From assembly GCA_944321125.1 (NCBI GenBank), contig CALUKD010000029.1:1-45755 (forward strand): DNA of 45,755 bases, written 5' to 3'. The position numbers were made by a program, and so were the translations under genes. Of this stretch, positions 12,603 to 45,755 are shown piece by piece. Within the stretch, counting starts at the first letter, position 1; each line of letters begins with the position of its first letter. The stretch comes from Candidatus Butyricimonas faecavium. Lineage in GTDB: Bacteria; Bacteroidota; Bacteroidia; Bacteroidales; Marinifilaceae. Below the pieces are notes generated by a model that worked only from the letters and a program-made list of their open reading frames with translations, made no database searches and was not told the origin of the DNA.

Positions 12603-12608
12603 GGATGT

Positions 12609-24951: not shown

Positions 24952-25515
24952 ATGTTTCAAGCAAAAGAAAATATAATCCAGGATTTTATTGACGGGAAAG
25001 AGTCGGCTTTTAAAGAAATTTACGAAAAGTATGTTTCTACTTTGCGTTATTTTGGAAATAAATTTTTATCCGATGAACGGCTAATCGAGGATATTCTTCA
25101 AGATACCTTTGTGTCTCTTTGGGAAAATAGGAAGAAGTTTAACAATGAACTTGCGATAAAAAGCTTTTTATATACAGGTGTTAAAAATCGTTGTTTGAAT
25201 AATCTTCGTCATGAAAAAATTAAGCAGAAATATGTAGAAGGATTCGTGGAAGAACCCTCGGAAAGTTTTCTTGAAAATGTAATTAAAGCTGAGCTTTTCG
25301 AAATGTTACATCGTATTTTCGATGAATTACCTCCTGCTTGTAAAGAAGTATACCAGCTCAGTTTGGAGGGGAAAAAACACGAAGAGATAGCTAAACAACT
25401 TCATATATCTATTAATACGGTGAAAAAATACAAGAATAATGCTAATCACTACATGCGTAACCGGATTAAGGATTTTAATCTTTTTCTTTTGTTGTTGAAA
25501 AACAGTAGTTTATAG
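24952..25515 (+). CDS. ECF RNA polymerase sigma factor (FecI-like)
   Basis: 187 residues. Region 2 contains DILQDTFVSLWENRKKF (about 42-58). Region 4 is near the C-terminus: LPPACKEVYQLSLEGKKHEEIAKQLHISINTVKKY with its helix-turn-helix. It belongs to the large Bacteroidetes ECF group paired with FecR anti-sigma factors and TonB-dependent receptors. It would transcribe the downstream susC-like operon when the receptor is loaded. It is followed by FecR with an 84-base gap. Confidence 0.94.
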   Translation: MFQAKENIIQDFIDGKESAFKEIYEKYVSTLRYFGNKFLSDERLIEDILQDTFVSLWENRKKFNNELAIKSFLYTGVKNRCLNNLRHEKIKQKYVEGFVEEPSESFLENVIKAELFEMLHRIFDELPPACKEVYQLSLEGKKHEEIAKQLHISINTVKKYKNNANHYMRNRIKDFNLFLLLLKNSSL

Positions 25516-25599
25516 ATCGAAGTTTAAAAAATATTATTTTTTTAATATATTGCTATACACCAAACGCTAGTTCAAGTGTTTTAGATGTAAAAATAAAGC

Positions 25600-26760: not shown

Positions 26761-26765
26761 ATAAA

Positions 26766-26793
26766 CGGAAGGTGCGGGAACACCTTCCGCTTT
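26766..26793 (+). terminator. Terminator between fecR and the receptor gene
   Basis: CGGAAGGTG (26766-26774) pairs perfectly with CACCTTCCG (26781-26789), with a 6-base loop and CTTTT after it. It insulates the regulatory pair from the receptor operon, whose promoter should lie in 26790-26860. Confidence 0.8.
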
Positions 26794-26860
26794 TACACTC
26801 TTCATGTGCAACGGGAATTGCCAATAAAAGAGAATTTATAAATTAAAGTAATTCAAAGTT

Positions 26861-29800
26861 ATGAAAAAAAAGTGGTATTTACTTCTTTTTCCGAACTATC
26901 GGAATAGAAAAATTTTGAGGGTTATGAGATGGAATATCGTATTGATCCTTGTCTGTGTGTTACAAGTGGCTGCCATTGGGGTATCGGCACAAGAAAAGGT
27001 TTCCTTGAACCTGAAGGATGTATCTGCAGAACAAGTGTTTCGGGAGATCAAACGTCAAACGAAATATGATTTCGTGTATAATGAAGAGCAATGTCGGGAT
27101 CTGGGAAAAATGAGCGTGAACGTGAAGGATGAACCTGTAGGTAAGGTGTTGGATAAGTTGCTTTTGGATAGAGGATTTTCATGGGACTTGCTTGAAGGAG
27201 GAATCATTTTGATAAAAGTGCAAAGTAAATCTTCGGATAAAAGGCAAGAATTTAAAATAACGGGGAAAGTGACAGATCAAAGCGGGGAAGTTTTACCGGG
27301 AGTTGCTATCTTGATTAAGGGGACGACGATAGGAGTGGCCACGGATGCCAATGGGGAGTTTTCGTTAGTACTTCCCAAGGATTCGGTGGTTTTAGTATTT
27401 TCTTTTATCGGAATGGAAACTCAATATGTGGCAATTCCAAAGTTTAAAGTTGGTGAATATCATCAAGAGTTAAAAATCACGATGCAAGAAGAAAAAGTGG
27501 CATTAGAAGATGTTGTGGTCACTGGTATCTTTACTCGTAAAAAGGAAAGTTTTACGGGATCGGCTTCTACTTATACTGCAGCAGAGTTGAAAACGATGGG
27601 GTCCCAGAATATTTTACAGAGTTTGAAGACGCTTGATCCGGCATTCGCGATTTTGGAAGATAATCAATTCGGTTCGGATCCAAATCGCTTGCCGAACATG
27701 GAGATTCGAGGGAAATCAAGCGTGTTAGGATTGCGTGACGAGTTGGATGCTGACCCTAATCAACCCTTGTTTATTTTAGATGGATTCGAATCGTCATTAG
27801 CTGTAATTAATGATTTGGATATTAATCGTATAGAATCTATTACGATATTAAAGGATGCGGCTTCAACTGCTATTTACGGATCGAAAGCTGCTAACGGGGT
27901 TGTTGTGGTAGAAACGGTGAAACCTAAATCGGGAGAACTTCAGGTGAGTTATAACGGGAATCTCAATCTTTCTATGCCGGATTTGACCAGTTATAATTTG
28001 ATGAATGCAAGGGAAAAATTGGAATTTGAGAAATTGGCGGGAGGGTATTCTCCGGCTAATTGGAGCGCGGAAAAAGAAATTGAATTGAATGAATTGTATA
28101 ACAAGAAATTGGAAGCTATAGAGAGTGGGGTAAACACTTACTGGTTGGCCGAACCGTTACGCACGGGAGTAAATCAAAAACATTCTTTGTACGTGCAAGG
28201 TGGTGAAGGCCGTTTTCTTTTTGGTTTGGGTGTCGGGTATAACGGTATTTCCGGGGTGATGAAAGAGTCTTTGCGTGAAATCATCAGCGGTAATATTGAT
28301 TTGATCTATCGGATGGAAAAGTTTCAATTCTCTAACAAGTTTTCGATTAACGTGACGGATATAGAGAATCCTGTTGTACCTTTTCAATCTTACGCGGAAG
28401 CGAATCCTTATTTCAAGAAACGGAATAAGGATGGAATTGTCGAGAAATGGTTGGAGAAAAATGATTATTTTGAAGCGTCCAACCCGCTGTGGAATGACAA
28501 TTTGAATAGTCGCAATGAGGGAAAGAACGTTTCATTGAGCAATTATTTCGTGGCAGAATATTTTCCCACGACAGAATGGCGTGTACGTGCCCGGTTGGGA
28601 ATAACATACGGGAACAATGATACAGAGGTATTTTATTCCCCGGAGGACACGCGTTTTGAAGATACGGAAGCCTTGAAGAAGGGGGAATATACTTCAACGA
28701 ATACCCGGTTGAATCAAGCGGAAGGGGAACTTAGCGTGACCTGGGCTAAAGTGTTGGGAGTCCATCGGATCAATTTGGTCGCCGGGGGAAATTTCAATGC
28801 AAGCAAGTCTTTGGTTCAGGGGTATTCGGCACAAGGTTTCCCTGATGGGGATTTTACCTATCCTTCTTTCTCGAACGGATACCCGGAACACGGAATTCCC
28901 ACGTTTTACGAGAGTGTTTCTCGCTCTTTGAACGGTTATTTTAACGTTGGGTATTCATTTGACGATCGTTATCTGATGGATTTTAGTTTGCGTAGCAGCG
29001 GGTCTTCCGTGTTCGGATCTTCTAAAAAATACAACACGACCTGGTCTGTCGGTTTGGGATGGAATCTGCACAAGGAGAAATTTATCATGAATAACTTTAA
29101 TTGGATTAATTTGTTGAAATTGAGGGCTTCTATCGGTAATCCCGGAAATCAAAATTACGACTCGGCCCAAACATTGTTGACTTATGTATTCCAATATGGT
29201 TCGATGAATTATTTCGGGTTAGGTGCTATCTTGAATCAGGTGGGTAATCCTGATTTGAAGTGGCAAACCACGTTGGATAAAAATTTTGGTATTGACATTA
29301 CTTTGTTGAACAGGCGTTTAAATATCACGGTTGACTATTTTCATAAAGTGACGGACCCGCTTCTGATACGGATTGGGATGCCGTTGTCTTCTGGAACACC
29401 AACTTATATGACGAATGCCGGAGAACAAACCTCTCAAGGAGTGACGGCTACTGCTTCTTACTATATTATTCAGAATTTTGATAAACGTTTTTCGTGGATG
29501 GTACGTGCCAATCTGCGTACGCAGAAAACACGAATCGACAAGATTGGGGACAAATTGTCGTTGCTCAACGCGAGCGGAAAGGGAGCCAATACGGTTCGGT
29601 ATTATGACGGGGCGGACCCGGATGATATTTGGGCTGTAAAATCGGTGGGTATTGACCCGGCGAATGGTAAAGAGTTATTTTACGATGAAAATGGAAATTA
29701 CACGTATGATTTCTCATATGATGATGAGGTTATTTGCGGTAATACTCGTCCGAAAATAGAGGGGGTAGTGGGAACGTCTTTGAATTGGAAAGGATTGTCG

Positions 29801-32579: not shown

Positions 32580-34193
32580 ATGAAAATAAAAAATGTAATA
32601 TTACTCTCGTTCATTCTCTTTTTGATGTCGTGCTATGACGACAAGGGGAATTATGATTATAGCGAGATGGCAGAAATTAAAATAGAGAACTTGCCCGAAA
32701 CGCTTGAAATTCTTGGAGGTATAGAGCATATTGTTGCCCAACCGAAGGTGATTTCTTCATTGGAAGGAGAGATTAAGGATGGAAATCCTAATTTCGAGTT
32801 TTCTTATAAGCTGGAGTTAAAGGGAGGAAGCCAATTATATAATGAAGCATGGGTAGATTTGAATCCGTCTAAATCGTTAAACTTGGATACGTTAATTTCA
32901 ATCCCATCGGGGAATTATGTCGTGTGGTTTGCGGTAAAAGATAAACGTTCCTCTATCGAGTATTCTACAACTTTTGACGTGAAAGTGACTTCTTCCACGT
33001 ACGAAGGTTGGTTGGTATTGTGTAACGAGGGTGAAGAAGAACGTGTGAGGATGGATATGATTTCCGTTATTTCGGCAGATCGGATTGAACCCGCTTATGA
33101 TTTGTTGTCTTTGTTAGGACTTCCCGATCTGAAAAAAGCAACGAAGATCGGATTCTATCCGGCACCTGTTGCCACGGGGGATGTTATTTATCTCATGTCG
33201 GAAGAAGGTACTTACAAACTTAACCAGAATACCTTCGAGACGAGTGATATGTATAACATTTACACGACAGACTTTATTGTAGCACCAAGCGATCCGGATG
33301 AAAGCATCGTTGAATATATGCCCTTGGCAAACATGGGCCCTCCTACTGCACGTGCTATTTTTGCCGTTTCAAATAAAGGGAATGTTTATGCATTAGTAAC
33401 GGCTGCGGGAGCGGCTTTTGAAATGCCAATCAATACTTCTGTTCGCGGGAAGTCCCCCGAATACCGTGTCGCCCCGTATGTTGGTATAAGTATGGTTCGT
33501 TACCCGGGAAACAGTACGGCCGCCTTGTTCTATGATATAGATAATAAACGTTTTGTGGGTTGGAGCTTCAAGAGCCCGACAAGTAATGACGTTAACCAGA
33601 TATTGACACCTGTTCCTAATCCGGAAGTCGGAGGATTGTTTGACTTTAAAACCGGAATGGATCTAGTTTACATGGAAGGAACTCGTTATTCGAATGGCTT
33701 GGTGTACGCCATATTGCAAAACGCTTCTGGGAAACGAGTTATATATGGAATTAATATGAGCGGAACGGGATTCGTGCAAGAGAGTAAATACGAAAATTTG
33801 AACGCCCCAGATTTCGATAAAGCTACAGTCTTTGCTTTCCATTCTCAGTTCCCTTATATGTTCTACGGTGTGGGAAACAAAGTGTATTTGCATAATTTGG
33901 GAACCAATATGACTTATGAAATGAAAAATATCAATTTGGGAGCCAACGAAGAAGTGACCATGTTGAAATTTAATTTGTATCATAATAATTATTGGTGGCC
34001 GGAACCCTCGGAAGAATTTATGGCCCGTCAATTCGAATTGATGGTGGGTACTTATGATAATAGTGTTAGTGGTGTGAACGGAGGAAAGTTGGGATTCTAT
34101 AAAGTGGATGGCGTGAATAATTCGATAACAAAACGAGTGGAATATTCCGGTTTCGCTCGGATAAAGGATGTCCGGTACAGGGAAAGACGTTAG
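32580..34193 (+). CDS. PKD-like family surface lipoprotein
   Basis: 537 residues. The signal MKIKNVILLSFILFLMSCYDDKG is a lipoprotein type with lipid Cys near 18. The N-terminal PKD-like beta sandwich (about 25-140, with the ending SSIEYSTTFDVKVTSSTYEGWLVL) and the rest, which suggests a beta-propeller-like repeat, match the PKD-like proteins found after DUF4843 in these operons. Ligand unknown. It is the last gene of the SusC operon, and no peptidase, hydrolase or dedicated enzyme follows, unlike many such loci. Confidence 0.82.
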   Translation: MKIKNVILLSFILFLMSCYDDKGNYDYSEMAEIKIENLPETLEILGGIEHIVAQPKVISSLEGEIKDGNPNFEFSYKLELKGGSQLYNEAWVDLNPSKSLNLDTLISIPSGNYVVWFAVKDKRSSIEYSTTFDVKVTSSTYEGWLVLCNEGEEERVRMDMISVISADRIEPAYDLLSLLGLPDLKKATKIGFYPAPVATGDVIYLMSEEGTYKLNQNTFETSDMYNIYTTDFIVAPSDPDESIVEYMPLANMGPPTARAIFAVSNKGNVYALVTAAGAAFEMPINTSVRGKSPEYRVAPYVGISMVRYPGNSTAALFYDIDNKRFVGWSFKSPTSNDVNQILTPVPNPEVGGLFDFKTGMDLVYMEGTRYSNGLVYAILQNASGKRVIYGINMSGTGFVQESKYENLNAPDFDKATVFAFHSQFPYMFYGVGNKVYLHNLGTNMTYEMKNINLGANEEVTMLKFNLYHNNYWWPEPSEEFMARQFELMVGTYDNSVSGVNGGKLGFYKVDGVNNSITKRVEYSGFARIKDVRYRERR

Positions 34194-34339
34194 GTAATTA
34201 CAGCAAACTCCCTCCCTCTTTCAGGCTCACTTGAACAAAGAGACGAGGAAGTTTGGTTATGGAAACAAGCATTTCTTTCATGTATTGTAAAATGGAATAT
34301 AATTACCAAATTTTTTTCTATCTTTAATAGAATCAAGTA

Positions 34340-34392
34340 TTGTCTTGTTGATAGGACAAAAATAGTTTGTATTTGTCCTATCAACAAGACAA
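34340..34392. repeat. Perfect 21-bp inverted repeat downstream of the Sus operon
   Basis: Bases 34340-34360 and 34372-34392 are exact reverse complements around an 11-base loop. The length and perfection exceed a normal terminator. There is no T-run. It may end the operon transcript or be a recombination or protein-binding site. Confidence 0.6.
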
Positions 34393-34485
34393 ATATAATG
34401 GAAGGATAAAGATATTTTGGAATCAGTTGTTACGGATAGTTAGATGTAAACAACTAAATATCAGAATTTTGTTATTTCTTCAACG

Positions 34486-34527
34486 GGAATGAAAGTTGTT
34501 TTACCAACTTTCATTCCTATTTGTTAA
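34486..34527 (+). terminator. Terminator-like hairpin
   Basis: GGAATGAAAGTTG (34486-34498) pairs perfectly with CAACTTTCATTCC (34505-34517) around TTTTAC and is followed by TATTTGTTAA. Probably a transcription stop for readthrough from the Sus operon. Confidence 0.6.
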
Positions 34528-34878
34528 TCAGTTACAATAATTATTACCTTACTGATCGTTTCTAGTGAGAACTAGAAGAAAAAGAATGGAAATACAATAG
34601 AGAAGTTACCTTTTTCTCGTGGATCATTCAGAGCTTAAACGGCGCTTAGACATTCCGTTATGGCTGATCAACGTTTGAGCTTCGAATGAGTTCTGGGTAA
34701 GGGGTATTATTTGGAACTTATCTGTCCTTTATTTGGAATATATTTGTGTATAAATCCTAGGTTAAATATTCTTTTATTTTACAATTTAATTTCGTTCGTT
34801 TATTTGCTCTCTTTAATGTGGGAGATTCTGTAATTACCAGCACTTGAATAACATATATAATAGGGAATGTCTTATTTG

Positions 34879-34900
34879 GGGTAAAACATAGTTAAAACAA
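34879..34900. repeat. 22-base direct repeat, copy 1
   Basis: Starts GGGTAAAACATAG and ends TTAAAACAA. An exact second copy lies at 36406-36427, on the other side of the IS and the tRNA fragment. It may mark an older recombination or attachment event. Confidence 0.6.
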
Positions 34901-34906
34901 AGATAG

Positions 34907-36202
34907 TGTTCTGGGATAGTGTCCCCAAAAGTGTGTAAATTCCAATTTATTTATTTTTGTAATAGAACAGTCAAAAATAACTTATTATGGAATTTACACC
35001 TGAGCAAATAACGGAAATAATCTCCGAAATAACAAATGGAGAACAAGGATTCCAAGGTCTTGTCAAACAAGGTCTTGAAAGTTTAATGCATAGCGAACGT
35101 GCAGTTCATAACGCGGCACATAACGACGTTAGCAACGGTTATCGTGATCGTCGAGTGTGCTATGACCGTAAAGTGTTTGAGCTTCGTGTCCCACGTAGTC
35201 GTAACAGCAATTTTTACCCGATGTTACTAGGTGTGTTGAAAGACCAAGAAGAAGAAGCCCAAAAACTGGTGAGCAGTCTTTATTGTAGTGGTTTGACCAC
35301 CGAACAGGTAGGGAAAATCTACGAACAGTTTTACGGGAAGCATTACAGTAAAAGTCAGGTAAGTCGCCTCTTGAACACGGCCCGTGAAGATGTAAACGCG
35401 TGGCTGGGGCGTAAACTTGAGAAACGTTACCCCATTCTTTATATCGATGCCACGTATGTCCTCACCCGTCGGGACGAGTCCGTGAGCAATGAAGCCTATT
35501 ACACGGTTTTGGGAGTGAAAGAAGACCGCACAAGGGAAGTTTTAACCGTGGTAAACTTTCCCACGGAAAGCGCGACCAATTGGAAGGATGTTTTTGAAGG
35601 TCTCAAAGAAAGAGGTGTAGCCGTGGTGGACCTGTTGGTATGTGACGGGTTATCCGGTATTGAAAACACGCTGGCCGATACTTTTCCCCAAGCGGATCTG
35701 CAGTTGTGTACCGTTCATCTGAAAAGGAATATCGTGAATAAAGTCAAGCCCGGGGATAAGAAACAGGTTATGGAGGAACTCAAACAAATCTGCTCTCCTG
35801 ACCAATGGGACATTACCCCGGAAAAGGCATTCGGTGTATTCAAGGAGTTCATACAAAGGTGGCAAAAGAGTTACCCGCCGCTAAAGAGATACCAGCATGA
35901 CAGGTACAGGTTTTATTTTACATACTTCAAATATGAAAGGGAAATCAGGGGAATGATTTATACCACGAACTGGATCGAAAGACTGAACAGGGATTATAAG
36001 AGGGTTATTAACATGAGAGGGGCCATGCCGAATCCACAGGCCGTCATTCTACTGATGGGGACCGTGGCTCAAAACGCGGATATTTATAAATACCCTATTT
36101 ATAATTTTTTAGAATCAAGATTATTTTATTAAAAATGAATAGATTTGCAAAGATGAAAAAAGAAAGGATTTACACACTTTTTGAAACACTATCTGTTCTG
36201 GT
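34907..36202 (+). mobile_element. IS256-family insertion sequence with 8-bp target duplication
   Basis: The element proper runs 34915-36194 (1,280 bp). Inverted ends at 34915-34943 and 36167-36194 share GATAGTGT at the tips and AGTGTGTAAAT inside, with a few mismatches between them. The flanks TGTTCTGG at 34907-34914 and 36195-36202 are identical 8-base target duplications, the size expected for IS256. It carries one intact transposase, so it looks recent and potentially mobile. Confidence 0.93.
34987..36132 (+). CDS. IS256-family (Mutator-type) transposase
   Basis: 381 residues. DDE residues are placed as in IS256: Asp in LYIDATYVLTRR (about 156), Asp in LLVCDGLSGIENTL (about 222), and Glu in TNWIERLNRDYKRV near the C-terminus. 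Between the last two comes the family motif CTVHLKRN. Full length with no disruption. It cuts and joins the IS ends. GC content and CpG use are like the chromosome on the left and unlike the AT-rich island to its right. Confidence 0.95.
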   Translation: MEFTPEQITEIISEITNGEQGFQGLVKQGLESLMHSERAVHNAAHNDVSNGYRDRRVCYDRKVFELRVPRSRNSNFYPMLLGVLKDQEEEAQKLVSSLYCSGLTTEQVGKIYEQFYGKHYSKSQVSRLLNTAREDVNAWLGRKLEKRYPILYIDATYVLTRRDESVSNEAYYTVLGVKEDRTREVLTVVNFPTESATNWKDVFEGLKERGVAVVDLLVCDGLSGIENTLADTFPQADLQLCTVHLKRNIVNKVKPGDKKQVMEELKQICSPDQWDITPEKAFGVFKEFIQRWQKSYPPLKRYQHDRYRFYFTYFKYEREIRGMIYTTNWIERLNRDYKRVINMRGAMPNPQAVILLMGTVAQNADIYKYPIYNFLESRLFY

Positions 36203-36247
36203 TTAAACATCTACCTCAAAACACCTCATTTTCTCTTGAAAACAAAA

Positions 36248-36279
36248 AAGCAGTTACATTTTTGATTTTGTAACTGCTT
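36248..36279 (-). terminator. Terminator of the former tRNA gene
   Basis: AAGCAGTTACA (36248-36258) pairs with TGTAACTGCTT (36269-36279). On the minus strand the stem is followed by a run of T. It lies directly past the 3' end of the tRNA fragment, so it is the original tRNA terminator that stayed with the chromosome. Confidence 0.8.
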
Positions 36280-36286
36280 CATTTTT

Positions 36287-36331
36287 AAGTGGTCCCACTT
36301 GGGCTTGAACCAAGGACCCCCTGATTATGAG
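36287..36331 (-). tRNA. tRNA 3' half (CAT anticodon loop), probable attR of an integrated element
   Basis: Read on the minus strand: the anticodon loop CTCATAA, the 3' anticodon strand TCAGG, variable region, a paired T arm CTTGG-TTCAAGC-CCAAG, and the acceptor strand TGGGACC. The matching 5' anticodon strand (CCTGA) is absent: the sequence changes right at the loop, and no D arm or acceptor 5' strand exists. So this is a fragment, not a working gene. Its 3' side faces the chromosome and its broken side faces the AT-rich island, as expected where an element crossed over inside a tRNA gene. A CAT anticodon fits tRNA-Met or tRNA-Ile2. Confidence 0.75.
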
Positions 36332-36405
36332 TGAGTGGATATGGTGAGATGTAAAATAATGATAATTAGTGTGTTATGAGGGTATTTTATCCTTTTTTCC
36401 TAAAA

Positions 36406-36427
36406 GGGTAAAACATAGTTAAAACAA
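36406..36427. repeat. 22-base direct repeat, copy 2
   Basis: Exact copy of 34879-34900, in the same orientation. It lies about 75 bases inside the island from the tRNA fragment. Confidence 0.6.
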
Positions 36428-36612
36428 TTTGTTTAGTCTATGTGGGTTGATAATTACTGATAATGAGTGTGTTACTGGTTTAGTTTTTGATGAAAAATGA
36501 TAGTGTTTCCTTCCATGTTTTCATTATTGTCTTTGGTCTTCTTTTGTTGTATTGATATACATAATATTGATTTTTTTATGTAAATAAATGCTTTTGTGGT
36601 TAATATTTTTTT

Positions 36613-36655
36613 TGTTGCACTTACTTGCTAATATATACAAAATCTATCTGCAACA
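36613..36655 (-). repeat. 43-bp asymmetric dyad element, left copy
   Basis: Begins TGTTGCACTTACTT and ends AATCTATCTGCAACA. Its reverse complement aligns along its whole length with the element at 45591-45634, 9 kb away (about 37 of 44 positions). One arm carries AACTAAG/AAGTAAG next to TGCAACA; the other carries TGTTGCAGATAGATT. Confidence 0.7.
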
Positions 36656-37283
36656 AAATTTAAATCAAGGATTCATGGACATGGTTTTAGCCAGAATGTA
36701 AATAATGCTTTTTTCTCTTCATTTGTTGATATTTTTAATGGTTGATATGTGTAATACTATTCAATGCAGAAAGTGGCTGTATAGGCTTAAAAAGGGCCTT
36801 ATTTTTCATCTTAATGATAGATATTCAGAATATAGAATTGCTTGTATGACCATAGGGAAAATATAAAATAATTGCTCAAAAATTTGGAATTAGTTAAAAA
36901 ATGTATTATATTTGTATTATTCAAGAATTTTGTTATAGTACAATGGGAAGAAACCATGTACTTCTACTTTTGAAGATGGATATTACTTACCACATGAGAA
37001 TTGATGAAACAGTCAGAAATCATATTAAAATCTATCTTAAACTTCAATGCCCTTCTTTCCTTTTTGGAAAGTAAATTCAGTGAAATGGAGCATTGTTGGA
37101 TCAGGTAGCTACTCCTGTGTCCAATAGCAAGGTGTTTCTTCATTTGCTTCTAAGCCCCCAGCCTTATACTATGCACCATCAAATAATTTGATGAGAGAGT
37201 GAAAATCAATTGATTTTAAGCAAATAGAGGGGGCATGATACATTTAAATTGAAAGTATATTTAATCTATCATTCAAGTTAAAA

Positions 37284-37416
37284 CTAAAGCAAGATAGAAT
37301 AGTTTTTTAATAGAATGTGTTGAATTTTAAAGATTAGAACTAAAGCAACACAGGAAATAAATTTGAAATGGAATATATCATTTTCCTACAAGCTAATGCT
37401 AGAGTAACACAGGATA
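37284..37416 (+). repeat. Three degenerate direct motifs spaced 56-59 bases
   Basis: CTAAAGCAAGATAG (37284), CTAAAGCAACACAGGA (37340) and CTAGAGTAACACAGGA (37399) recur in one orientation. They resemble the CTAAGTGCAACA arm of the 43-bp elements, so they may be related binding sites. Too few and too divergent to be a CRISPR array. Confidence 0.5.
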
Positions 37417-37663
37417 AATTGTGAATAATTAATAATATTTATATCTTAGCCTAATGAGCCATATGAATGAAAGGAAACACAAACCTAAGTTCATGTCTCC
37501 TTCCTATTCTGAGTGGGTAAAAAGATAAATATTTTTTGACTTCTTAATCTAAAGAAAAGCCACATGAATTGATTCAAAAAATACCAATTAATCCATTCTT
37601 TAGCATGAGATGTATGTTGTTTATTAATGGTAGGGGGATAACAGATTTAGTTAAAAGATAGAG

Positions 37664-37688
37664 TGGGAGTGATTATATTATACTCCCA
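37664..37688 (-). terminator. Hairpin downstream of the helicase gene
   Basis: TGGGAGT (37664-37670) pairs with ACTCCCA (37682-37688), extended outward by GAG/CTC with a one-base bulge. The same hairpin, diverged, occurs at 40814-40841 and 42326-42341 between other genes of this island. Confidence 0.65.
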
Positions 37689-37733
37689 TCTCATATATAT
37701 AACATTTTATCTCTTCTATTCTTCAATTAATTG

Positions 37734-39818
37734 TTATTGAGAATTGATCTTGTTAATAGTATTATTTAGAAAATCATGATAATAATCATTTCCACAGTTT
37801 ATTATTATAAGGTTTTGTTGACATCTTGTTAATCCTGTGTATATTAATTCTTCTGATCCTTTTCTTGAAGCTGGATCTATTAGCAAGAATAATGTTGAAG
37901 TTTGCCAACCTTTAAAACTATGGATTGTTGATATATTGATCCCTTTCCTGCCTGTATAAAAATGTCTTTTTTTTATTTGTTGAGCATTTTCAATCATTTT
38001 TTCAAAATGAAAAGAATTTCTATTTTGATATTTTAGGAATTTTTGCGACCAATCTTTGAAAGTCTTGTACCATTTTTGAAATTTATCTATAGATAATTGA
38101 TTAGCCTCTAATTCTTGATATAATTTTTCTTTAAAAGCATCATCTTGATATTTAATGTACAAATAATTAAAGGTCAAGATTAAAGATAATTCTTGACTTG
38201 ATGTCAATAAGGATGTATTTAATTGGTATTCAGTGAGTAATAGTAAATTTTTGAATTCTAGATTTGCAAATGTTGTATTGGTTGCTTTTTGAGATTTATA
38301 TTTATAGAAGGCTTCAAATTCCATTAATTGTTCTTTGTTACTACCCAACAAAGTAATGTTATTTTCAATCTGGGAAAGATATGTTTTGCTACTTGTCAAT
38401 ATCTCATAAATAGCAATTACAGGATCACCTGTTGGTAAATTGAAATACTCTACACTACCTTTAAACTCCTCAAAATCAAAAGACATTTGTTGGTCAAATT
38501 CGTCAATGAAATATTTATCATGGAAAAAATGTTTTTGAAACTCACAAGCTAGTCTTCTTATGTTTTCTCCTGATCTATAACAAAATTTTAAAAGAGAGGG
38601 GGCTCCAATTACATTTGTTCTCACATCTTTATTATCTAGTTCATTCCCATAAATATTTTGTTTCTCATCTCCAAAAAGAACATATTCTCCACCTTCTTTT
38701 AAAAAACATTGTTTAATAATATCCATCCAAGGTCTTTTGTAATCTTGAATTTCATCTATTAGTATTGTGGCATATTTTTGAATTTCATCTTTATGGTTTT
38801 CAAATAGAGATAAATTAGAATAATAATTGTTTTCTAGGTATTGATTTTTTAATTCTGTTGTTTTTAGCTCTGTAGGATAGTGAAAAGGTATCCTTAAATT
38901 ATTCAACTCAGCTTGAATGAATTCATGATAATTTAGCACATGGAAATTTTCTAATGGAACTTCCTCTTCAAATTCTTGAAGTTTACTTTTTATGTAATTA
39001 ATTAATGTGATATTGTAAGTCAAAATTAATACAGTTTCACCTGTCCTTCTATATGCATTAATAGCCCTGCAAGCAAGAACTGTTGTTTTACCAGATCCCA
39101 TTGCCCCTTTTATCCTCTGTTGCCTAGGAATACTGATAGATAGATTCAGCTGTTGTGCATTCAATTTAATGTTTTTCCTTTCTTTTCTTGAATATCTCTT
39201 TTGTAGCAAGTACTCCTTGACCTCCATGTATAATTTTTCATCAAAAAGAACTGATTCTTTATTGGCTAGTAAATAAGAATTTTGTAAAATCTCTCCAAAA
39301 TTCTGTATGCTTAAACTATCCTTACCCAAAAACTTTATTTTTTTCTCTATTTTGGATGCATCCTTTTTCAGATAGGTAGTGATAAAATTCTTCACTTCTT
39401 GACAGGTGTTAGCATGGAAATAAAGAGCACAAGCAAAAACTGTATGGTAATATCGATTTTGAACATATTTATATAATAAGCCTGGGATGTAATCGTAAAA
39501 AGTATCTTTATATAGACTTATTTGTTTTAATGGGGATAAAATATTTTCATTGTTTAAATCATCATGCCATAATAATGGATTAGTTGGATTTGCAGAATAT
39601 TCTTTCAATTCTTTATCAAAGATTTGAATAATTAGTGCTCCATAATTTTTTCTTAGTATTACACAAGTGAGCTTGTTCCCTTCTATGTTTGGCTTAAAAA
39701 ATATTTCAAAACTATCATCTAAATGCAATTCTAAAAAAACTAATAAAGTTTTTTCTCCTGCAGTTAAGGTTTCTTCTACTTCTTTTATTTTTTTATATGG
39801 AGGATAGAATATTGCCAT
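37734..39818 (-). CDS. UvrD-like superfamily 1 helicase with degenerate NERD-like domain
   Basis: 694 residues. The helicase core has Walker A GAMGSGKTT (about 238-246), Walker B ILIDEIQDY (about 352-360), FGDEKQNIY (motif III) and, near the C-terminus, STIHSFKGWQ (about 630) and YTGLTRCQQNLII (motif VI). The N-terminal region (about 20-112) follows the NERD nuclease layout: GEKTLLVFLE, FKPN, VILRKNYGALIIQIFDKEL, SPLKQISLYKD. The NERD catalytic pattern is PD then IEVK; here those places read LT and IQIF, so the nuclease is probably dead. NERD-helicases are known from phage-defence contexts. All Arg codons are AGA or AGG, and CpG is almost absent. It is the last gene of the minus-strand group. 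Confidence 0.85.
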   Translation of the reverse strand: MAIFYPPYKKIKEVEETLTAGEKTLLVFLELHLDDSFEIFFKPNIEGNKLTCVILRKNYGALIIQIFDKELKEYSANPTNPLLWHDDLNNENILSPLKQISLYKDTFYDYIPGLLYKYVQNRYYHTVFACALYFHANTCQEVKNFITTYLKKDASKIEKKIKFLGKDSLSIQNFGEILQNSYLLANKESVLFDEKLYMEVKEYLLQKRYSRKERKNIKLNAQQLNLSISIPRQQRIKGAMGSGKTTVLACRAINAYRRTGETVLILTYNITLINYIKSKLQEFEEEVPLENFHVLNYHEFIQAELNNLRIPFHYPTELKTTELKNQYLENNYYSNLSLFENHKDEIQKYATILIDEIQDYKRPWMDIIKQCFLKEGGEYVLFGDEKQNIYGNELDNKDVRTNVIGAPSLLKFCYRSGENIRRLACEFQKHFFHDKYFIDEFDQQMSFDFEEFKGSVEYFNLPTGDPVIAIYEILTSSKTYLSQIENNITLLGSNKEQLMEFEAFYKYKSQKATNTTFANLEFKNLLLLTEYQLNTSLLTSSQELSLILTFNYLYIKYQDDAFKEKLYQELEANQLSIDKFQKWYKTFKDWSQKFLKYQNRNSFHFEKMIENAQQIKKRHFYTGRKGINISTIHSFKGWQTSTLFLLIDPASRKGSEELIYTGLTRCQQNLIIINCGNDYYHDFLNNTINKINSQ

Positions 39819-39996
39819 GTATTATTTTTTTGAGAGAAATATAGGCAAATATATAATAAATTAATACAAATTTGAACAAAGAATTAACATGAATGAAATA
39901 TAAATGTTTTATATATTTTATGTGAAGAATATTCATAGTTACATTTGAATGTGGCCTGTATTTTTCGATTTTGAATATGGAGAAGGTATATTTATT

Positions 39997-40052
39997 TACA
40001 CTCATCCTTAAAATCTCTCTATAAAAATTTTAGTAAGGGTAGAATGAGTGTA
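39997..40052 (-). terminator. Hairpin overlapping the end of the second lipoprotein gene
   Basis: TACACTCAT (39997-40005) pairs with ATGAGTGTA (40044-40052), and the inner CCTTAAAAT pairs loosely with ATTTTAGTAAGG. The stem includes the stop codon of the gene at 40030, and the helicase start is about 180 bases further. Confidence 0.5.
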
Positions 40053-40773
40053 TATTGTTATAATTACAATAAAGTCTAAACAAAAATGTAATCCTGTTTT
40101 TATATGCAATATTCAAATGATAATCATTCCAAATATTGTTTTCATCATATTGATAAAATTTACTAGTCAAACTCAAATCAGCTTGTAAAGTTTTGTTCCA
40201 GCTTTCTTGGCTTTTCACAAGTTCTTCTTGTTCTTCCTTCTTCATTCTTTTTAAAAGTTTCATGTAATATTTGTAAATGATATATTCTTGTGCTGAGTTT
40301 TGATACACTTGAAAACTATATAATATTGGCTTGTATGTTCCTGTTGGATCACAATCTTTTATTATTCTTAGGATTTCATTCATTTTAAATGTATCTTGTG
40401 CGAACTCTATCTCTTCTGGGGATGTAGAATTGCTAATTGGGATTTTGTAATAAAATTGATTGCTGATGTACTTTTGCAAATAATTATTTATTTGAGTGTA
40501 AAAAGTGACATTCTTTTGGATTCTTTCATGTCTATCATATAGAAATAATATGCTGTTTTGAAGTCCCTCTCTAAGGGTATCAAGTTCTTTTCTTGTATAT
40601 TCTTTGGGCTTACTTGGCTTTTCAAATAAACTTGTTATAGGGATTTCTTCCCATTTTCCTATTATTGAGTTAAAGGCAATGGTATCAGTAACAACCTTAG
40701 AAGACATTGTTGTTGATTTAGGCTTGCATTCCCACAAAAGAATAACTAAGAAGAATAGAGTTATAATTTTCAT
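40030..40773 (-). CDS. Hypothetical lipoprotein with LprI-like C-terminal pattern
   Basis: 247 residues. MKIITLFFLVILLWECKPKS is a lipoprotein signal with Cys near 16. The C-terminal half (EEQEELVKSQESWNKTLQADLS) recalls the lysozyme-inhibitor LprI/DUF1311 pattern in which a Trp follows a charged helix, but the conserved Cys residues of that family are not evident. Function unknown. Its upstream leader shares 18 identical bases with that of the LRR lipoprotein. It is AT-rich and CpG-poor like its neighbours. Confidence 0.6.
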   Translation of the reverse strand: MKIITLFFLVILLWECKPKSTTMSSKVVTDTIAFNSIIGKWEEIPITSLFEKPSKPKEYTRKELDTLREGLQNSILFLYDRHERIQKNVTFYTQINNYLQKYISNQFYYKIPISNSTSPEEIEFAQDTFKMNEILRIIKDCDPTGTYKPILYSFQVYQNSAQEYIIYKYYMKLLKRMKKEEQEELVKSQESWNKTLQADLSLTSKFYQYDENNIWNDYHLNIAYKNRITFLFRLYCNYNNIHSFYPY

Positions 40774-40788
40774 TTTTAATGTAATTTC

Positions 40789-40841
40789 TATCTGAATTTG
40801 TAATATAAATGGAGGTGGAGTGATTACATGATACTCTCACC
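40789..40841 (-). repeat. Shared leader and hairpin repeat, copy 1
   Basis: TATCTGAATTTGTAATAT (40789-40806) recurs exactly at 42301-42318. Next to it is the stem GGTGGAGT/ACTCTCACC (40814-40821 with 40833-40841), related to the hairpins at 42326-42341 and 37664-37688. The leader is just upstream of the lipoprotein start on the minus strand, and the hairpin ends the preceding gene. Confidence 0.65.
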
Positions 40842-40846
40842 CCATA

Positions 40847-42298
40847 TTATTTCTTCACTTTACATACTACATCATCCTCAATAAACCACATATCCATGGG
40901 TTCAAAATTCTTTGATACCCATATAGTCTTAAGAGAGGAGCAATAAGCTTTAAAATAATAAAGTTTATCAAGATGACTAATATCTATGGTTGTAATTTGT
41001 GATCCATAAATGTCGATTCTCTCCAATTTAGTGCAGCTAGAGAGGTCTAATTTTTTTAGAGAAGATACCTGAAAAATGAAAGTTTCTAAATTTTTATTTA
41101 GATTGATAGTTCTTAAATTATTACAGCAACATTCTAAATAAATTAATTCTGAATTATGACTTAGATCTAAATCTGAAAATTTGTTAATACTACAATAAAG
41201 TTCCTTTAATTTCTCACATTTATCAACTTTTAATTCTAAAAGATTATTGTTACTGCAAATTAAGTTTTCCAATTTTTCATATCCATCAACATCTAATTTG
41301 GAAATTTTATTATCAGAACAATCTAGAGTACATAATAATGGATTATTTAATTCTAATTTTGTAATTTGGTTTTCAGAACAATCTAAGTCTTTTAATTTTT
41401 TACAACTACTAACATCCAAATTTGAGATATTATTATTAGAACATTTTAAATATTCAAGATGTAGATGATTTAATTCCAATTCTGAAAGTTTGTTATAAGA
41501 ACAATCTAGATACCTTAATTTCTTACAGTTGCTAATATTGAGTTGGGTTATAGAATTTCTACTAACATCTATGGAATCAAGTTTCACACATCTACTCAGA
41601 TCAAGAATATGTAAAGAATCATTGCCAGATACTTTTAAATACTCCAAATTAGCAGCACATGAAGAGAGGTCTAATTCTTCTAACTGGCAGTTGTAAATGT
41701 TGATTTTTTTCAAATTAAAACAGTTGTTGATGTGAAGTTGATCCAATGCCAAGTAATATATTTTCAATTCAGATAACTTTGGAAATGAAGGTAAATCTAG
41801 TGTTTTTTTTATAGTTTCAAATGGAGGTCCTTCTAATTCTAAAAAGGATAATTGTGGACAATGGTCAATATGAAAATTATCAAAATATTTAGGAGTGGCT
41901 GATAATTTCTCCAATTCAGAACAATTTTCAACAGTTAGCTGGTTAATATAACCATGCAATCCTAATTCTTTCAAACTAGGATAATTGTTTACTTCCAATC
42001 TAATCCCTCCTGCCATGCAATCTAAATGCAAGGATTGAAGTTTCCTTAAATGTTTAAGATTTGCAGGGACTTTACCCATCATTGTATCACTTAATTGAAT
42101 CTTGACAACTTTCCCCTTTTCATCAGTGGTAATACCATACCATTCATTGAGAGGTTTATCACTTAGCCAATTCTCTTTATGTTCCCATTTATCTCCATCT
42201 AAAGCCTTGTAAAAAGATTCTAATATTGATCTTTCACTCCTGCAACATCCCCAAAGCAATAGTTGGGTTATTAAAATTATGATTGAATATTTTACCAT
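40847..42298 (-). CDS. Leucine-rich-repeat lipoprotein
   Basis: 483 residues from ATG 42298, chosen because it exposes a lipoprotein signal (MVKYSIIILITQLLLWGCCRS, lipid Cys 18). The frame extends to 42364, but the longer N-terminus is polar. Residues about 25-100 resemble the N-terminal cap of LRR proteins (LESFYKALDGDKWEHKENWLSD). About 17 leucine-rich repeats of roughly 20 residues follow (LDCSYNKLSELELNHLHLEYL type, with recurrent LDCSxNxI). It is probably surface-exposed and binds a protein or host ligand. Tandem repeats may diversify. It shares its promoter-leader with the next lipoprotein gene. Confidence 0.85.
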   Translation of the reverse strand: MVKYSIIILITQLLLWGCCRSERSILESFYKALDGDKWEHKENWLSDKPLNEWYGITTDEKGKVVKIQLSDTMMGKVPANLKHLRKLQSLHLDCMAGGIRLEVNNYPSLKELGLHGYINQLTVENCSELEKLSATPKYFDNFHIDHCPQLSFLELEGPPFETIKKTLDLPSFPKLSELKIYYLALDQLHINNCFNLKKINIYNCQLEELDLSSCAANLEYLKVSGNDSLHILDLSRCVKLDSIDVSRNSITQLNISNCKKLRYLDCSYNKLSELELNHLHLEYLKCSNNNISNLDVSSCKKLKDLDCSENQITKLELNNPLLCTLDCSDNKISKLDVDGYEKLENLICSNNNLLELKVDKCEKLKELYCSINKFSDLDLSHNSELIYLECCCNNLRTINLNKNLETFIFQVSSLKKLDLSSCTKLERIDIYGSQITTIDISHLDKLYYFKAYCSSLKTIWVSKNFEPMDMWFIEDDVVCKVKK

Positions 42299-42300
42299 TT

Positions 42301-42341
42301 TATCTGAATTTGTAATATGAATTAAGGAGTGGTTATACTCC
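42301..42341 (-). repeat. Shared leader and hairpin repeat, copy 2
   Basis: The leader TATCTGAATTTGTAATAT (42301-42318) is followed by the stem GGAGT/ACTCC (42326-42330 with 42337-42341). It sits between the membrane protein gene and the LRR lipoprotein gene. Confidence 0.6.
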
Positions 42342-42387
42342 CATCTCATGTGAATTGTGTTCAATTACTATCTCATGTTGATATGAA

Positions 42388-43134
42388 TTATTGATTAAGG
42401 GAAGTTAGAGCTACAATTATTAGAACAATAATAAGGAATATTATGTAATAAAATATAACTCTCCTGTTTTGCTCTTTTTGTTCTTCAATGGATGTTATAG
42501 TATAGAGTGTTTGAGGTGTTTCTGAATTTTTATTATGGGCAGTAATTAATCCCATCACCATTTCAACACTTCTATATCCCTCTTCATATAATTTTTCCTC
42601 TACTAGATAAAGATATTGTTCTTTCCCATTGACCTTTAAAATAAAAATACTCTCACTTTCATAGCTTGGCTGGTATAAAGTACTTTTATTATCAAATTCA
42701 ATCATCAATGAATTATCCCCAACTTCTTCCCATTTACCTTTTATTACATCTCCAGAATTAGCAATTAATAATGTTTGGTCTTTTTGAAAAATATATATTT
42801 GCCTTTCCTCTTCTGATTCTTTTAGAAGAACCCAATTCTTTTTGATCAAGTGTTGCTTGGATACTTTTAGATTTATGGATTGAATTTTATCTACCACTTT
42901 TTCACCAACAGAAGAGATAACAGGTTTCTGTTCAATCTTCTTTTCTGATTTATCCTTTTTCTTGTTCAAACATAATAAAATTATGAATGCAGGTAATGTG
43001 AGAAAGAGTGTAAAAATTATCCATCCCACTATATTCCTGTTTAATTCTTTTGCTCTATATCCTGCCCAAATAGTTATCCCTATTTTAATGATGGGCAGTA
43101 ATAACATTAAAAATGCAGTTTCTTGTTGATTCAT
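42388..43134 (-). CDS. Hypothetical three-TM membrane protein
   Basis: 248 residues from ATG 43134 (MNQQETAFLMLLLP); the upstream TTG at 43152 is less likely. Two N-terminal membrane spans (about 6-27 and 35-57) and one C-terminal span (about 222-243) enclose a soluble middle (60-215) with a short beta-rich part (QTLLIANSGDVIKGKWEEVGDNSLMIEF). No family recognised. It starts 27 bases after the stop of the upstream nuclease-like gene, so they are probably co-transcribed. Role unknown. Confidence 0.7.
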   Translation of the reverse strand: MNQQETAFLMLLLPIIKIGITIWAGYRAKELNRNIVGWIIFTLFLTLPAFIILLCLNKKKDKSEKKIEQKPVISSVGEKVVDKIQSINLKVSKQHLIKKNWVLLKESEEERQIYIFQKDQTLLIANSGDVIKGKWEEVGDNSLMIEFDNKSTLYQPSYESESIFILKVNGKEQYLYLVEEKLYEEGYRSVEMVMGLITAHNKNSETPQTLYTITSIEEQKEQNRRVIFYYIIFLIIVLIIVALTSLNQ

Positions 43135-43161
43135 GATACTTCTTATTATCAAAAATTTTAA

Positions 43162-44910
43162 TCATTTGTATTTTGCTTTAAATTCTTCTTCATTCATCAT
43201 TTCAGTGGTCTCAACTAAGAGATCATCATAGTTAGGATCATTCTCATTCATACAGAAATATAAGTTTCTGTAAATGGGTAATCCTTGATGTAAATGAACT
43301 TTTGCAGGTGTTCCTTTTTCTTCATTTGCAGGTGTCATTTTAGGTTGCTGAACTTTATCTCCAACTTTCCAAAATGGTTTGCCAACTTGTTCTCTTATTG
43401 AGATCCTACATTTAGGCCAAATGGCATTTAGATTAGTTCCTATCTTTAGATCATACAGTTCCATGATTTCTTTTTCAAGAACTAATCTAACAATTCTATT
43501 TTGTGGAAACAGAGCTGCACCTCTTGATATAATTTCTTTGCTTACTATCTTGATTCTAATAAAATTAGAATCAGAAACCTTTTCAAAATCTACCCCTTCT
43601 TCTTCATTAAGGGGAACTACAAAAACTTGTCCTTTGTTTTGTATTTTTGATTTTACTTGAATGCTAGTACATGCCTCATCTGTGTCATTTTTAATTTCTG
43701 CTGAAGAAGTTTGAGAAATATTTGTATCGTTATTATTTGAGTATTTATTATCAAATTTTTTTCTGGAATCTTGAATGGCCATTAATCTAGCCTCCTCTTT
43801 TGTCCACTGTTTTATTTTTATTGAATCAGCTAGTTTTTGGTATTGATCTAAATTTTCTTCATTAGGATTCTTGATAAAGTCTACTAATGCCTTGATGATT
43901 TTGATGCACCCTGTTAAATTGTATTTGATTTGATCTTCTGCCAATCTTAGAACAAACCAGTTACAGTTAGTGATGGTTTCATTTCTTATGTCATCTATTC
44001 CTATGTAGTGTATTTCTTTTTTAGTTTTAAATTCATATGGTTCATCTATTTCAATATCAATACAAATGTGTTCATCTATCTCTAATGTTATATCTGGATA
44101 ATAGCCTTCTATTTCAACATCCACTTTTACATACTGTGGAAATTCATACATTAATGCTTCAAATAACTTGTTCTCATAGAATCCTCTTTGTGGAGCATCT
44201 GTAATTTTTACATATGGAACTCCAAAGGAAAACAGAGAATGTAAGTATTGAGGATAGATAATTTTAAAATTTTCATTTATTTCTTGATTAAGCACTGATA
44301 TTTTTTTATTATATAGAATAACTTCCTCCTTGTATTCCTCTTCTTCTTGTTCTTTTTGTTTATTGTACTTTTTTAATTCTTCTTTTGTGAGTTGTTTGGG
44401 GTAAAATAAATTACTTTCCCTTTTTTTGCTATTTATTTGAACCAAATATAAACATTTGTGAAATAAAAATATAGAACATGGGAGAGTTATAATGCTCAAT
44501 AGAGGTGGCATGTAATTACCAATGATAAATAAGGCAAAAAGAAAACCAAGGACAATAAAAAGAACTTCTAAGCAACCAATCGCTTCTTCTTTGATTCTGA
44601 TTTTCTTTGTTTTTAATTCTAAGGAATATTGATTTGCTAATAATCTTTTGGTATTATCAAGGAATTGTTTAGAGGGATATATTAGTGGATATTTAGAATT
44701 GCAATATTCTACAATGTCTGTATAATATGGTTCTTTATGTATTGCTTCTTTTGCTTGTTTGGGGAGAAACAGTATAGGATATTCAATAATATTTTTTTCT
44801 TCATGGAATAAACTATATGCTGTTTTTATCCAAGAATAATTGTCAGGAGCAATTTCAATTTTTTGAAATTCTTCATGGTGATTAGATGATAGATTATAAT
44901 TTTCTTGCAT
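43162..44910 (-). CDS. Membrane-anchored protein with PD-(D/E)XK-like nuclease region
   Basis: 582 residues. A polar N-terminus (1-110) is followed by two adjacent membrane spans (about 111-131 and 134-157) and a coiled coil (about 174-214). A region at about 243-330 looks like a restriction-endonuclease-type fold: ENKLFEAL, YYPDITLEIDE, CIDIEIDEPY, and IDDIRNETITNCNWFVLRLAEDQI. The last part matches the Arg...GW.VLRF pattern of DUF559/Vsr-like nucleases. The C-terminal 180 residues are unassigned. It is the first gene of the minus-strand group and 27 bases from the three-TM gene. Calling it a nuclease is an inference from motif order. Confidence 0.65.
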   Translation of the reverse strand: MQENYNLSSNHHEEFQKIEIAPDNYSWIKTAYSLFHEEKNIIEYPILFLPKQAKEAIHKEPYYTDIVEYCNSKYPLIYPSKQFLDNTKRLLANQYSLELKTKKIRIKEEAIGCLEVLFIVLGFLFALFIIGNYMPPLLSIITLPCSIFLFHKCLYLVQINSKKRESNLFYPKQLTKEELKKYNKQKEQEEEEYKEEVILYNKKISVLNQEINENFKIIYPQYLHSLFSFGVPYVKITDAPQRGFYENKLFEALMYEFPQYVKVDVEIEGYYPDITLEIDEHICIDIEIDEPYEFKTKKEIHYIGIDDIRNETITNCNWFVLRLAEDQIKYNLTGCIKIIKALVDFIKNPNEENLDQYQKLADSIKIKQWTKEEARLMAIQDSRKKFDNKYSNNNDTNISQTSSAEIKNDTDEACTSIQVKSKIQNKGQVFVVPLNEEEGVDFEKVSDSNFIRIKIVSKEIISRGAALFPQNRIVRLVLEKEIMELYDLKIGTNLNAIWPKCRISIREQVGKPFWKVGDKVQQPKMTPANEEKGTPAKVHLHQGLPIYRNLYFCMNENDPNYDDLLVETTEMMNEEEFKAKYK

Positions 44911-45400
44911 CTTTATCTAACTGTTCCCTCCAGTCTCCAAAAGGTCATTACACAAAAAGAAGGCATGGAAACTGTAATTTATTTCACTTGGTGGTTCTGG
45001 TAATAACCATTGATATAAATAAAAACAGCCCATGCCTAACCCATATATTATTTTGAGAATAATATGCATGAGAAGGCAAGCACTTGTTTTATCCTTATAT
45101 CAATTCAAAAATTTACCAGATTCCCAAATGAAGGATAAATTAATGCCTCTTTCTAGTATGTCTGCCAGAATGATCTCTCACTCCAACAACACAAAAATAG
45201 ATATATTCAGCATCATAAACAAGTGCCTTTAGGGCTGCTATAAAACAAAAATATCACATATTTAATATCCTTGGTGTGTTTGGCTAATAATTTCTTTTTT
45301 TGTACCCCTTTATCTTTAAGAAAAAGATGGTGGGTACAGGTCTAATTTTATCATATAATATAGAATTGGAGCAGTACCTTTTTCTAATCAGAAGAAACAT

Positions 45401-45443
45401 TGTTACACTTAGTTTATATATTATATAAAAACTATGTGCAACA
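45401..45443 (-). repeat. 43-bp dyad element A
   Basis: Starts TGTTACACTTAGTT and ends ACTATGTGCAACA. Same orientation as the left copy at 36613-36655 and opposite to B and C. Confidence 0.65.
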
Positions 45444-45512
45444 CATTTTCTACAATAGAGCTCTTACTTTATATTTAATTATAGGAAACTAAGAGATCAA
45501 GTCATGAAGATG

Positions 45513-45555
45513 TGTTGCATTTAGATTATGATATTATATACAAGTAAGTGTAACA
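45513..45555 (+). repeat. 43-bp dyad element B
   Basis: Starts TGTTGCATTTAGATT and ends AAGTAAGTGTAACA. Inverted relative to element A and the left copy. Confidence 0.65.
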
Positions 45556-45590
45556 GGTATGCTTTCTTCCATAAAATTTCTAAGAAATCA

Positions 45591-45634
45591 TGTTGCAGAT
45601 AGATTATATGATATATTAACAACTAAGTGCAACA
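45591..45634 (+). repeat. 44-bp dyad element C
   Basis: Starts TGTTGCAGATAGATT and ends AACTAAGTGCAACA. The best match to the inverted left copy. Its inner and right parts are repeated 76 bases later. Confidence 0.7.
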
Positions 45635-45755
45635 ACAATTCATCTTCTTCTATTAGATCCTTTACCTTGATACAATACATTATATGATATATTAACAACT
45701 AAGTGCAACAACAATTCATCTTCTTCTATTAGATCCTTTACCTTGATACAATACA
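45604..45755 (+). repeat. 76-bp tandem duplication reaching the window end
   Basis: Bases 45604-45679 repeat at 45680-45755, identical as far as I compared. Each unit holds the CTAAGTGCAACAACAATTC arm of the dyad element. The second unit ends exactly at the window end, which may be the contig end. Confidence 0.75.

Follow-up and report, generated by a model that had tools for sequence, protein, structure and literature searches.

A nearly CpG-free tRNA-integrating element in Candidatus Butyricimonas faecavium, with CpG-poor relatives in islands and phages

The window analysed here is one whole contig (C29, 45,755 nucleotides) of the 48-contig genome of Candidatus Butyricimonas faecavium. Its right-hand part, positions 36203-45755, is almost free of CpG and appears to be the larger part of a mobile element that integrates at tRNA genes; the integrase, a RadC gene, and the right attachment site (attR) at tRNA-Met lie on C44, a contig of the same assembly, as are C6 and C41 below. 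We propose, with a probability of about 0.55, that selection removed CpG from DNA which, on passing from cell to cell, is exposed to a nuclease directed at CpG.

The CpG deficit and the element at tRNA-Met

Positions 36203-45755 contain nine CpG, at the same nine positions that an earlier note on this DNA had listed, whereas 192 are expected from base composition (observed/expected ratio, o/e, 0.05; Poisson log10 P about -68). The note had put the expectation at about 150, and the strong deficit that it described stands. GpC has an o/e of 0.97 over the same positions. In the DNA left of the island (1-36202), the CpG o/e is 1.20, in agreement with the free use of CpG that the note described there. 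Per kilobase, the ratio is at least 0.9 throughout 1-36,000 and at most 0.16 from 37,001 on. The final CpG left of the island, at 36077, lies within the transposase gene of an insertion sequence (IS) that abuts the island. The island has a G+C content of 0.28. However, low G+C alone does not give the deficit, because an A+T-rich stretch of chromosome at 24001-27000 (G+C 0.33-0.36) is CpG-normal (o/e 1.0-1.3). Coding and non-coding DNA are affected alike, as the note held, with four CpG in 37734-39818 and none in 2,372 non-coding bases. Its remark that arginine is encoded by AGA or AGG also extends to other DNA: eight pooled CpG-poor stretches from this and other genomes have 576 AGA/AGG and 6 CGN codons.

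The features of the element and its left border are as follows, in window coordinates unless C44 is named.

36203-45755, unstranded: CpG-free DNA, the left and middle part of the integrated element, cut by the contig end
36221-36332, minus strand: left attachment-site (attL) core with a copy of the 3' end of the tRNA-Met gene; 94.6% identity over 112 bp, in the same orientation, to C44 2431-2542
C44 1169-2374: tyrosine integrase of 401 amino acids (aa), no CpG; phrog_1, 1.5e-26
34867-34901, plus strand: short repeat near att; 97% identity to C44 2373-2408, where the integrase gene starts
About 34914-36194, plus strand: CpG-containing IS with a Mutator-type transposase (open reading frame 34987-36132; PF00872, E 2e-80), in the att region
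36609-36661 and 45585-45638, unstranded: inverted-repeat arms, mutual partners, of 28 nt and 21 nt, 89-90% complementary
45599-45755, unstranded: 76-bp tandem repeat, two copies, at the contig break
44927-45755, unstranded: segment apparently common to both CpG-free elements of the genome, judged from contig overlaps

The att core overlaps the complete tRNA-Met gene on C44 (2499-2573, minus strand), beyond which the chromosome is CpG-normal and carries an rlmH-like gene, identified by eye. C44 1-2581 contains no CpG and carries the integrase gene and a 180-aa RadC-type gene. In addition, C44 1-77 is identical to window 45604-45680, inside the terminal 76-bp tandem repeat. We infer that C29 and C44 hold a single element, about 12 kb long. 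The short repeat at 34867-34901 is possibly an arm-binding site of the integrase. A search of 34000-45755 against Rfam gives no match at E 1, and a DNA search that used the island's first 8 kb as query gives no phage match and one 47-bp match in one plasmid record. A 79% copy of the IS is present on C2 of the same genome. Seven other contigs also carry parts of the non-coding DNA left of the window's IS (34517-34755), at 67-82% identity.

The same genome contains a second CpG-free element, with two CpG in C6 1-3793 and one in C41 1-3980. Both zones end sharply at CpG-normal chromosome, and their borders have in common a 242-bp repeat (92.6% identity), located at a tRNA-Gln on C41. C41 carries an integrase different from that of C44, and a 752-aa DEAD-like helicase that is 33-38% identical to its counterparts in four CpG-poor islands. 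Window 44927-45003 is the reverse complement of C6 1-77. Such 77-base contig overlaps suggest a segment common to both elements, which extends from window 44927 to C44 1061 and includes RadC. The four pieces (the island on C29, C44, C6, and C41) together contain 12 CpG in 19,593 bases against 417 expected. Among 12 further contig starts sampled (1-8 kb; C36-C43 and C45-C48), one is CpG-free, namely C41.

Both elements have direct att repeats at the 3' end of a tRNA gene and an integrase within the element. They thereby resemble the tRNA-associated integrative islands of Bacteroidales that use tyrosine recombinases, which have an integrase near the tRNA, direct att repeats, and variable cargo; the window element differs from these by the near-absence of CpG. 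The integrase, the tRNA att repeats, and the relatives in other families support the transfer that the earlier note had proposed.

CpG-poor relatives among islands and phages

Among 55 further genomes of the family, none matches the 694-aa helicase of the window part at E 1e-10, and a scan of a genome contig collection, sensitive to close relatives only, gives no match either; relatives were therefore sought with the integrase. In 393 genomes of the order, the C44 integrase has matches at E 1e-80 in 15 genomes (18 loci), and the integrase gene is CpG-free at two of the 18, the element's own and that of genome G423. A second search, with an alignment of these two integrases as query, covered genome contig and viral contig collections. 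The genome contigs yield 28 loci, five of which have a run of at least 2 kb at a CpG o/e of 0.2 or less: Dysgonomonas sp. 520, D. mossii DSM 22836, Prevotella sp. Md513, an uncultured Bacteroidales bacterium, and Candidatus Merdivivens. Elsewhere in Bacteroidales there are thus CpG-poor islands that carry related integrases, although depletion is partial at the Prevotella locus (0.1-0.5 by kilobase) and in Merdivivens (0.14-0.8). In D. mossii, there is no CpG in 5001-13000; the depleted zone begins at tRNA-Met and stops near 13541-13695, where the end of the tRNA gene is repeated. In Dysgonomonas sp. 520, the CpG-free zone also begins at tRNA-Met and stops close to an exact repeat of 44 bp (13349-13392). 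The cargo of both islands is unlike that of the window. The viral contigs yield one match, L060, a crAss-like contig with a CpG o/e of 0.08 over 21 kb and an integrase 48% identical to that of the window element.

Among the 49 integrase rows compared (four of them duplicates), eight have a CpG o/e of 0.28 or less, and the rest are at 0.51 or more. An integrase tree was built from 41 rows: of the 46 aligned over more than 300 residues, four duplicates and a distant row were left out. Its seven CpG-poor rows (integrase o/e at most 0.28) need five changes, all five forced by well-supported branches, indicating several gains or losses of the deficit among these related elements. The CpG-poor rows show some clustering (25 of 500 shuffles are as low), and the integrase of the window element has a CpG-normal sister, L011 (o/e 1.10).

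The deficit is also found in phages. Over whole records, the CpG o/e is 0.022 in DAC15, 0.026 in PhiCrAssBcn23, 0.038 in cr126_1, 0.080 in cr116_1, and 0.085 in bajarodcaudo virus 1, a record without Crassvirales assignment; it is 0.227 in cr111_1, 0.241 in cr128_1, 0.46 in phi14:2, and 0.507 in cr108_1. Stretches of 9-15 kb give 0.022 for crAss001, 0.026 for frurule, and 0.157 for cr85_1, and 0.51-0.93 for five Suoliviridae. The strong deficit is a property of part of the Steigviridae, not of all Crassvirales. Outside Crassvirales by its record, Flavobacterium phage Fpv1 (L092, 11.4 kb) has a CpG o/e of 0.079, with GATC 0/25 and CTAG 2/27 (observed/expected). In L060 (69-3088), the gene for the terminase large subunit is apparently split over several frames, and a frame for a GIY-YIG homing endonuclease lies nearby.

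Some genes are common to CpG-poor islands and phages. A 90-aa protein of the islands has relatives in five of 13 phage records, four of them 45-49% identical and that in the L060 record 36% identical. It belongs to a module with a Sak4-like gene and DUF3871, which occur, among the loci compared, only in CpG-poor ones (L036, L049, L058, and the human faecal phage contig MT839478); a DEAD-like gene occurs in CpG-poor and CpG-normal loci alike. The Sak4-like protein was rejected as a marker of CpG-free DNA, as 67 viral loci that carry it have whole-locus ratios of 0.45-1.44. In wider searches, DUF3871 loci are reduced in CpG but as a rule not devoid of it; the gene o/e is 0.27-0.84 over 11 loci in 10 of 393 genomes, and strong depletion is seen in L115 and in part of L114.

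Selection or mutation, and poverty in GATC

In the proposed reading, the element is tRNA-integrating mobile DNA, and selection maintains its CpG-free state as an adaptation. On the way from one cell to another, most likely by injection inside or along with phage particles, its DNA would encounter a nuclease that attacks CpG; CpG-free copies would enter and integrate, and the resident chromosome, unexposed to the nuclease, would keep its CpG. The deficit, the att repeats and integrase, the recurrence of the deficit in related integrative elements and in some crAss-like phages, and the GATC poverty of these phages and of most CpG-poor islands measured are observed; the selection, the phage transfer, and the nuclease are inferred. 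Selection is likelier than mutation, a preference that the islands support and that is subject to genuine doubt where the phages and the GATC link are concerned.

In the mutational alternative, which the earlier note had named beside selection against a CpG-recognising system, 5-methylcytosine at CpG in the element or its usual host would deaminate, leaving TpG and CpA, and the element would then move to a CpG-normal host. Consistent with this, TpG (o/e 1.21) and CpA (1.19) are raised in the window island, and the C5-methyltransferase family PF00145 has one match each in G000 and G423, the two host genomes searched, with specificity not assigned. However, PF00145 has no match in the four phage records searched (three CpG-poor, one perhaps a fragment), and host CpG stands at 1.2. 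The codon tests of the islands also disagree with it. Compared with CpG-normal islands, the R ratio is 0.74 (0.54-0.95), where deamination predicts 1.42, and the Q ratio is 0.84 (0.67-1.06), where it predicts 1.31; compared with hosts, R is 0.68 (predicted 1.42) and Q is 1.31 (1.06-1.61; predicted 1.88). All four ratios, from two tests and two controls, are under the prediction, indicating that the islands lack the shift from C to T before G, beyond the controls, that deamination predicts. Methylation and deamination are thus not favoured, and we consider them unlikely to be the cause.

Avoidance of restriction sites, namely palindromes of 4-6 bp, is known in phages and plasmids, according to PMC12707154, which cites Rusinov et al. 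2018. Here, short palindromes are similarly under-represented, and in addition a dinucleotide is depleted, in all 16 NCGN contexts of the pooled islands and of three pooled phages. Given as observed/expected, GATC counts are 2/296 in PhiCrAssBcn23, 0/288 in cr126_1, 2/256 in cr116_1, 44/329 in DAC15, and 62/289 in bajarodcaudo virus 1, so that three of nine phages have two sites or fewer. The corresponding GGCC counts are 0/64, 19/52, 4/46, 19/67, and 77/116. In the islands, the GATC o/e is 0 in both Dysgonomonas islands, those of D. mossii and sp. 520 (counts of 0/21 and 0/28), 0.08 in L052, 0.12 in L049, 0.18 in L115, 0.36 in L117, 0.40 in L114, and 0.85 in the window island with C44 and C6; island GGCC counts are too small to weigh. 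All five of the most CpG-poor whole phage records and seven of the eight CpG-poor island rows are therefore GATC-poor, a loss that deamination at CpG does not explain. CpG and GATC ratios correlate across nine phages (Spearman 0.82, p 0.007) and across thirteen phage rows (0.85). The selection named in the earlier note fits better on these grounds, although the recogniser that it supposed was not found. We take GATC poverty as a sign of restriction avoidance, yet CpG-normal islands partly share it and the window island does not.

Three further palindrome counts may be recorded. The CpG-normal islands L034, L041, L046, L050, and L051 (9901-20000), pooled, have o/e ratios of 0.42 for GATC, 0.35 for GGCC, and 0.32 for CTAG. 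In phi14:2 (L194-L198, L090), GGCC is 0/14 and GATC is mildly reduced. PhiCrAssBcn23 (L200-L203, L067) has CTAG 1/303, besides its poverty in GATC and GGCC.

Several observations weigh against selection by a CpG-directed nuclease. Most islands with related integrases are CpG-normal. The elements of the window genome are without CpG yet retain GATC, as the mutational alternative would allow (44/52 in C29, C44, and C6; 11/13.6 in C41), and do not clearly avoid GGCC (7/10 and 2/3.1); the window element thus combines a strong loss of CG with no clear loss of the 4-bp palindromes that restriction-avoiding DNA would be expected to lack. Five pooled CpG-normal islands are also GATC-poor (61/145, 0.42), host controls have GATC ratios of 0.33-0.83, with 24/72 (0.33) in the host DNA of Dysgonomonas sp. 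520, and CpG correlates with GATC weakly across the 13 rows of islands and hosts (0.54, p 0.057). The island codon ratios depart from pure avoidance too, 0.74 (0.54-0.95) lying below 1 and 1.31 (1.06-1.61, against hosts) above it. Of the two codon tests in phages, one is in line with deamination (1.28, 1.13-1.45; predicted 1.18) and the other disagrees, the control phages being partly CpG-poor themselves; an earlier, smaller phage test seemed to exclude deamination and was not upheld with more phage sequence. Finally, the genes of the window stretch have no match in the crAss-like stretches compared, and the gene content of CpG-poor and CpG-richer phages (nine phages) brings out no nuclease.

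The last result bears on another alternative, in which a phage-encoded CpG-specific nuclease destroys the host chromosome and both the phage and a surviving satellite must lack CpG. Such a weapon would account for a deficit common to phages and chromosomal islands and absent in hosts, and the 90-aa protein common to CpG-poor islands and crAss-like phages is consistent with it. However, no nuclease-type family separates CpG-poor from CpG-richer phages, the best gene block (ThiF/JAB-like) is absent in CpG-poor cr116_1, and GATC poverty is more like host restriction; we regard this alternative as distinctly improbable. As to the blocks themselves, the nine crAss-like phages carry alternative ones, ThiF/JAB-like in six (in PhiCrAssBcn23, L202 5410-10567) and amidoligase/GATase/ATP-grasp in cr108_1 (L192 2533-9589) and phi14:2, and cr116_1 has neither by the same comparison.

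Compositional drift or an assembly artefact, to which the A+T-richness of the island and its end at a contig break might point, has a negligible probability in view of the normal GpC, the CpG-normal A+T-rich chromosome, two elements with matching att repeats in one assembly, and similar islands inside single contigs of named strains. The misjoined contaminant that the earlier note had considered is unlikely, because the att core is repeated on C29 and C44, the assembly contains a second CpG-free element, and each of the two Dysgonomonas islands lies between att repeats within one contig. Selection by vertebrate innate immunity was dropped by reasoning, since chromosomal islands would not be exposed to it.

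Beyond selection on the element itself, we raise more tentatively, and at less than even odds, that an undescribed and widespread CpG-directed nuclease system in Bacteroidota, host- or phage-encoded, drove several phage and island lineages to remove CpG. The outcome would be a CpG-free gene pool among CpG-normal chromosomes.

Cargo, known systems, and meaning

The window part of the element carries five genes, all on the minus strand.

37734-39818, minus strand: UvrD-like superfamily-1 helicase, 694 aa; PF13245, PF00580
40030-40773, minus strand: 247-aa open frame with a lipoprotein-like N terminus (by eye); no Pfam, PHROG, or PADLOC match
40847-42364, minus strand: leucine-rich-repeat (LRR) protein, 505 aa; PF12799, 4e-25; phrog_7816, 1e-51
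42388-43152, minus strand: 254-aa protein, function not assigned; weak phrog_9201, 5e-5 (residues 24-67); no Pfam match at 1e-3
43162-44910, minus strand: 582-aa protein, function not assigned; no Pfam, PHROG, or PADLOC match

The helicase matches the PADLOC model C3a187 'NERD+UvrD' (1.8e-51, best stretch residues 12-433). PADLOC gives no match for four other element proteins (three of the window and RadC), and no partner of a defence helicase of this model (Gabija/GajB or NERD-UvrD) is recognised among these four. The LRR protein has a lipoprotein-like signal within its N-terminal part, seen by eye, and a paralogue on C6 (1230-2894) with a 63% identical protein; the two genes are 75% identical in DNA and have one CpG each. 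Residues of about 270-350 of the 582-aa protein resemble, by eye, a PD-(D/E)XK-like region. This protein has partial similarity of 30-35% in three of 392 other genomes of the order, at CpG-normal loci (o/e 0.73-0.82), and its structure model was discarded (pLDDT 37). A PHROG scan of ten proteins (five of the window, two of C44, and three of C6) finds integrase, RadC-type repair, and LRR families and otherwise weak matches, including a 'tail' match of the RadC protein (E 0.006) that we take as spurious. A Pfam scan finds no relaxase or transfer genes among six window proteins (IS transposase included); most of C6, C44, and C41 lies outside that scan.

No terminase, portal, or capsid gene occurs among the proteins scanned with Pfam and PHROG, in which the islands differ from Crassvirales and the element from a crAss-like prophage. 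The likeness to Steigviridae such as crAss001 and DAC15 lies in the CpG o/e of 0.02-0.09 in the most depleted records and in the related integrase of L060; DAC15 and like phages are GATC-poor, and the window island is not. With satellites of the phage-inducible chromosomal island (PICI) type, the element shares a size of about 8.5-12 kb, an integrase, variable cargo, and the lack of recognised virion structural genes; Sak4-like and DUF3871 genes of phage type are present in some of the other CpG-poor islands. It differs in that the PHROG scan, in which several proteins have no match, recognises no gene for helper functions, packaging, or capsid remodelling.

A literature search that included PMC13037316, PMC8042965, and PMC12707154, with subscription papers mostly outside it, returned no account of CpG in crAss-like phages or of CpG-free islands, which is no proof that none has been published. 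So extensive a loss of CpG from bacterial mobile DNA resembles the trace that a strong, specific attack on this dinucleotide would leave. In that case, there is an unidentified nuclease system in bacteria of the kind infected by crAss-like phages. The absence of CpG would then serve as an easily read mark of islands that possibly move with crAss-like phages, and would suggest a practical design rule, namely CpG-free vectors for Bacteroidales.

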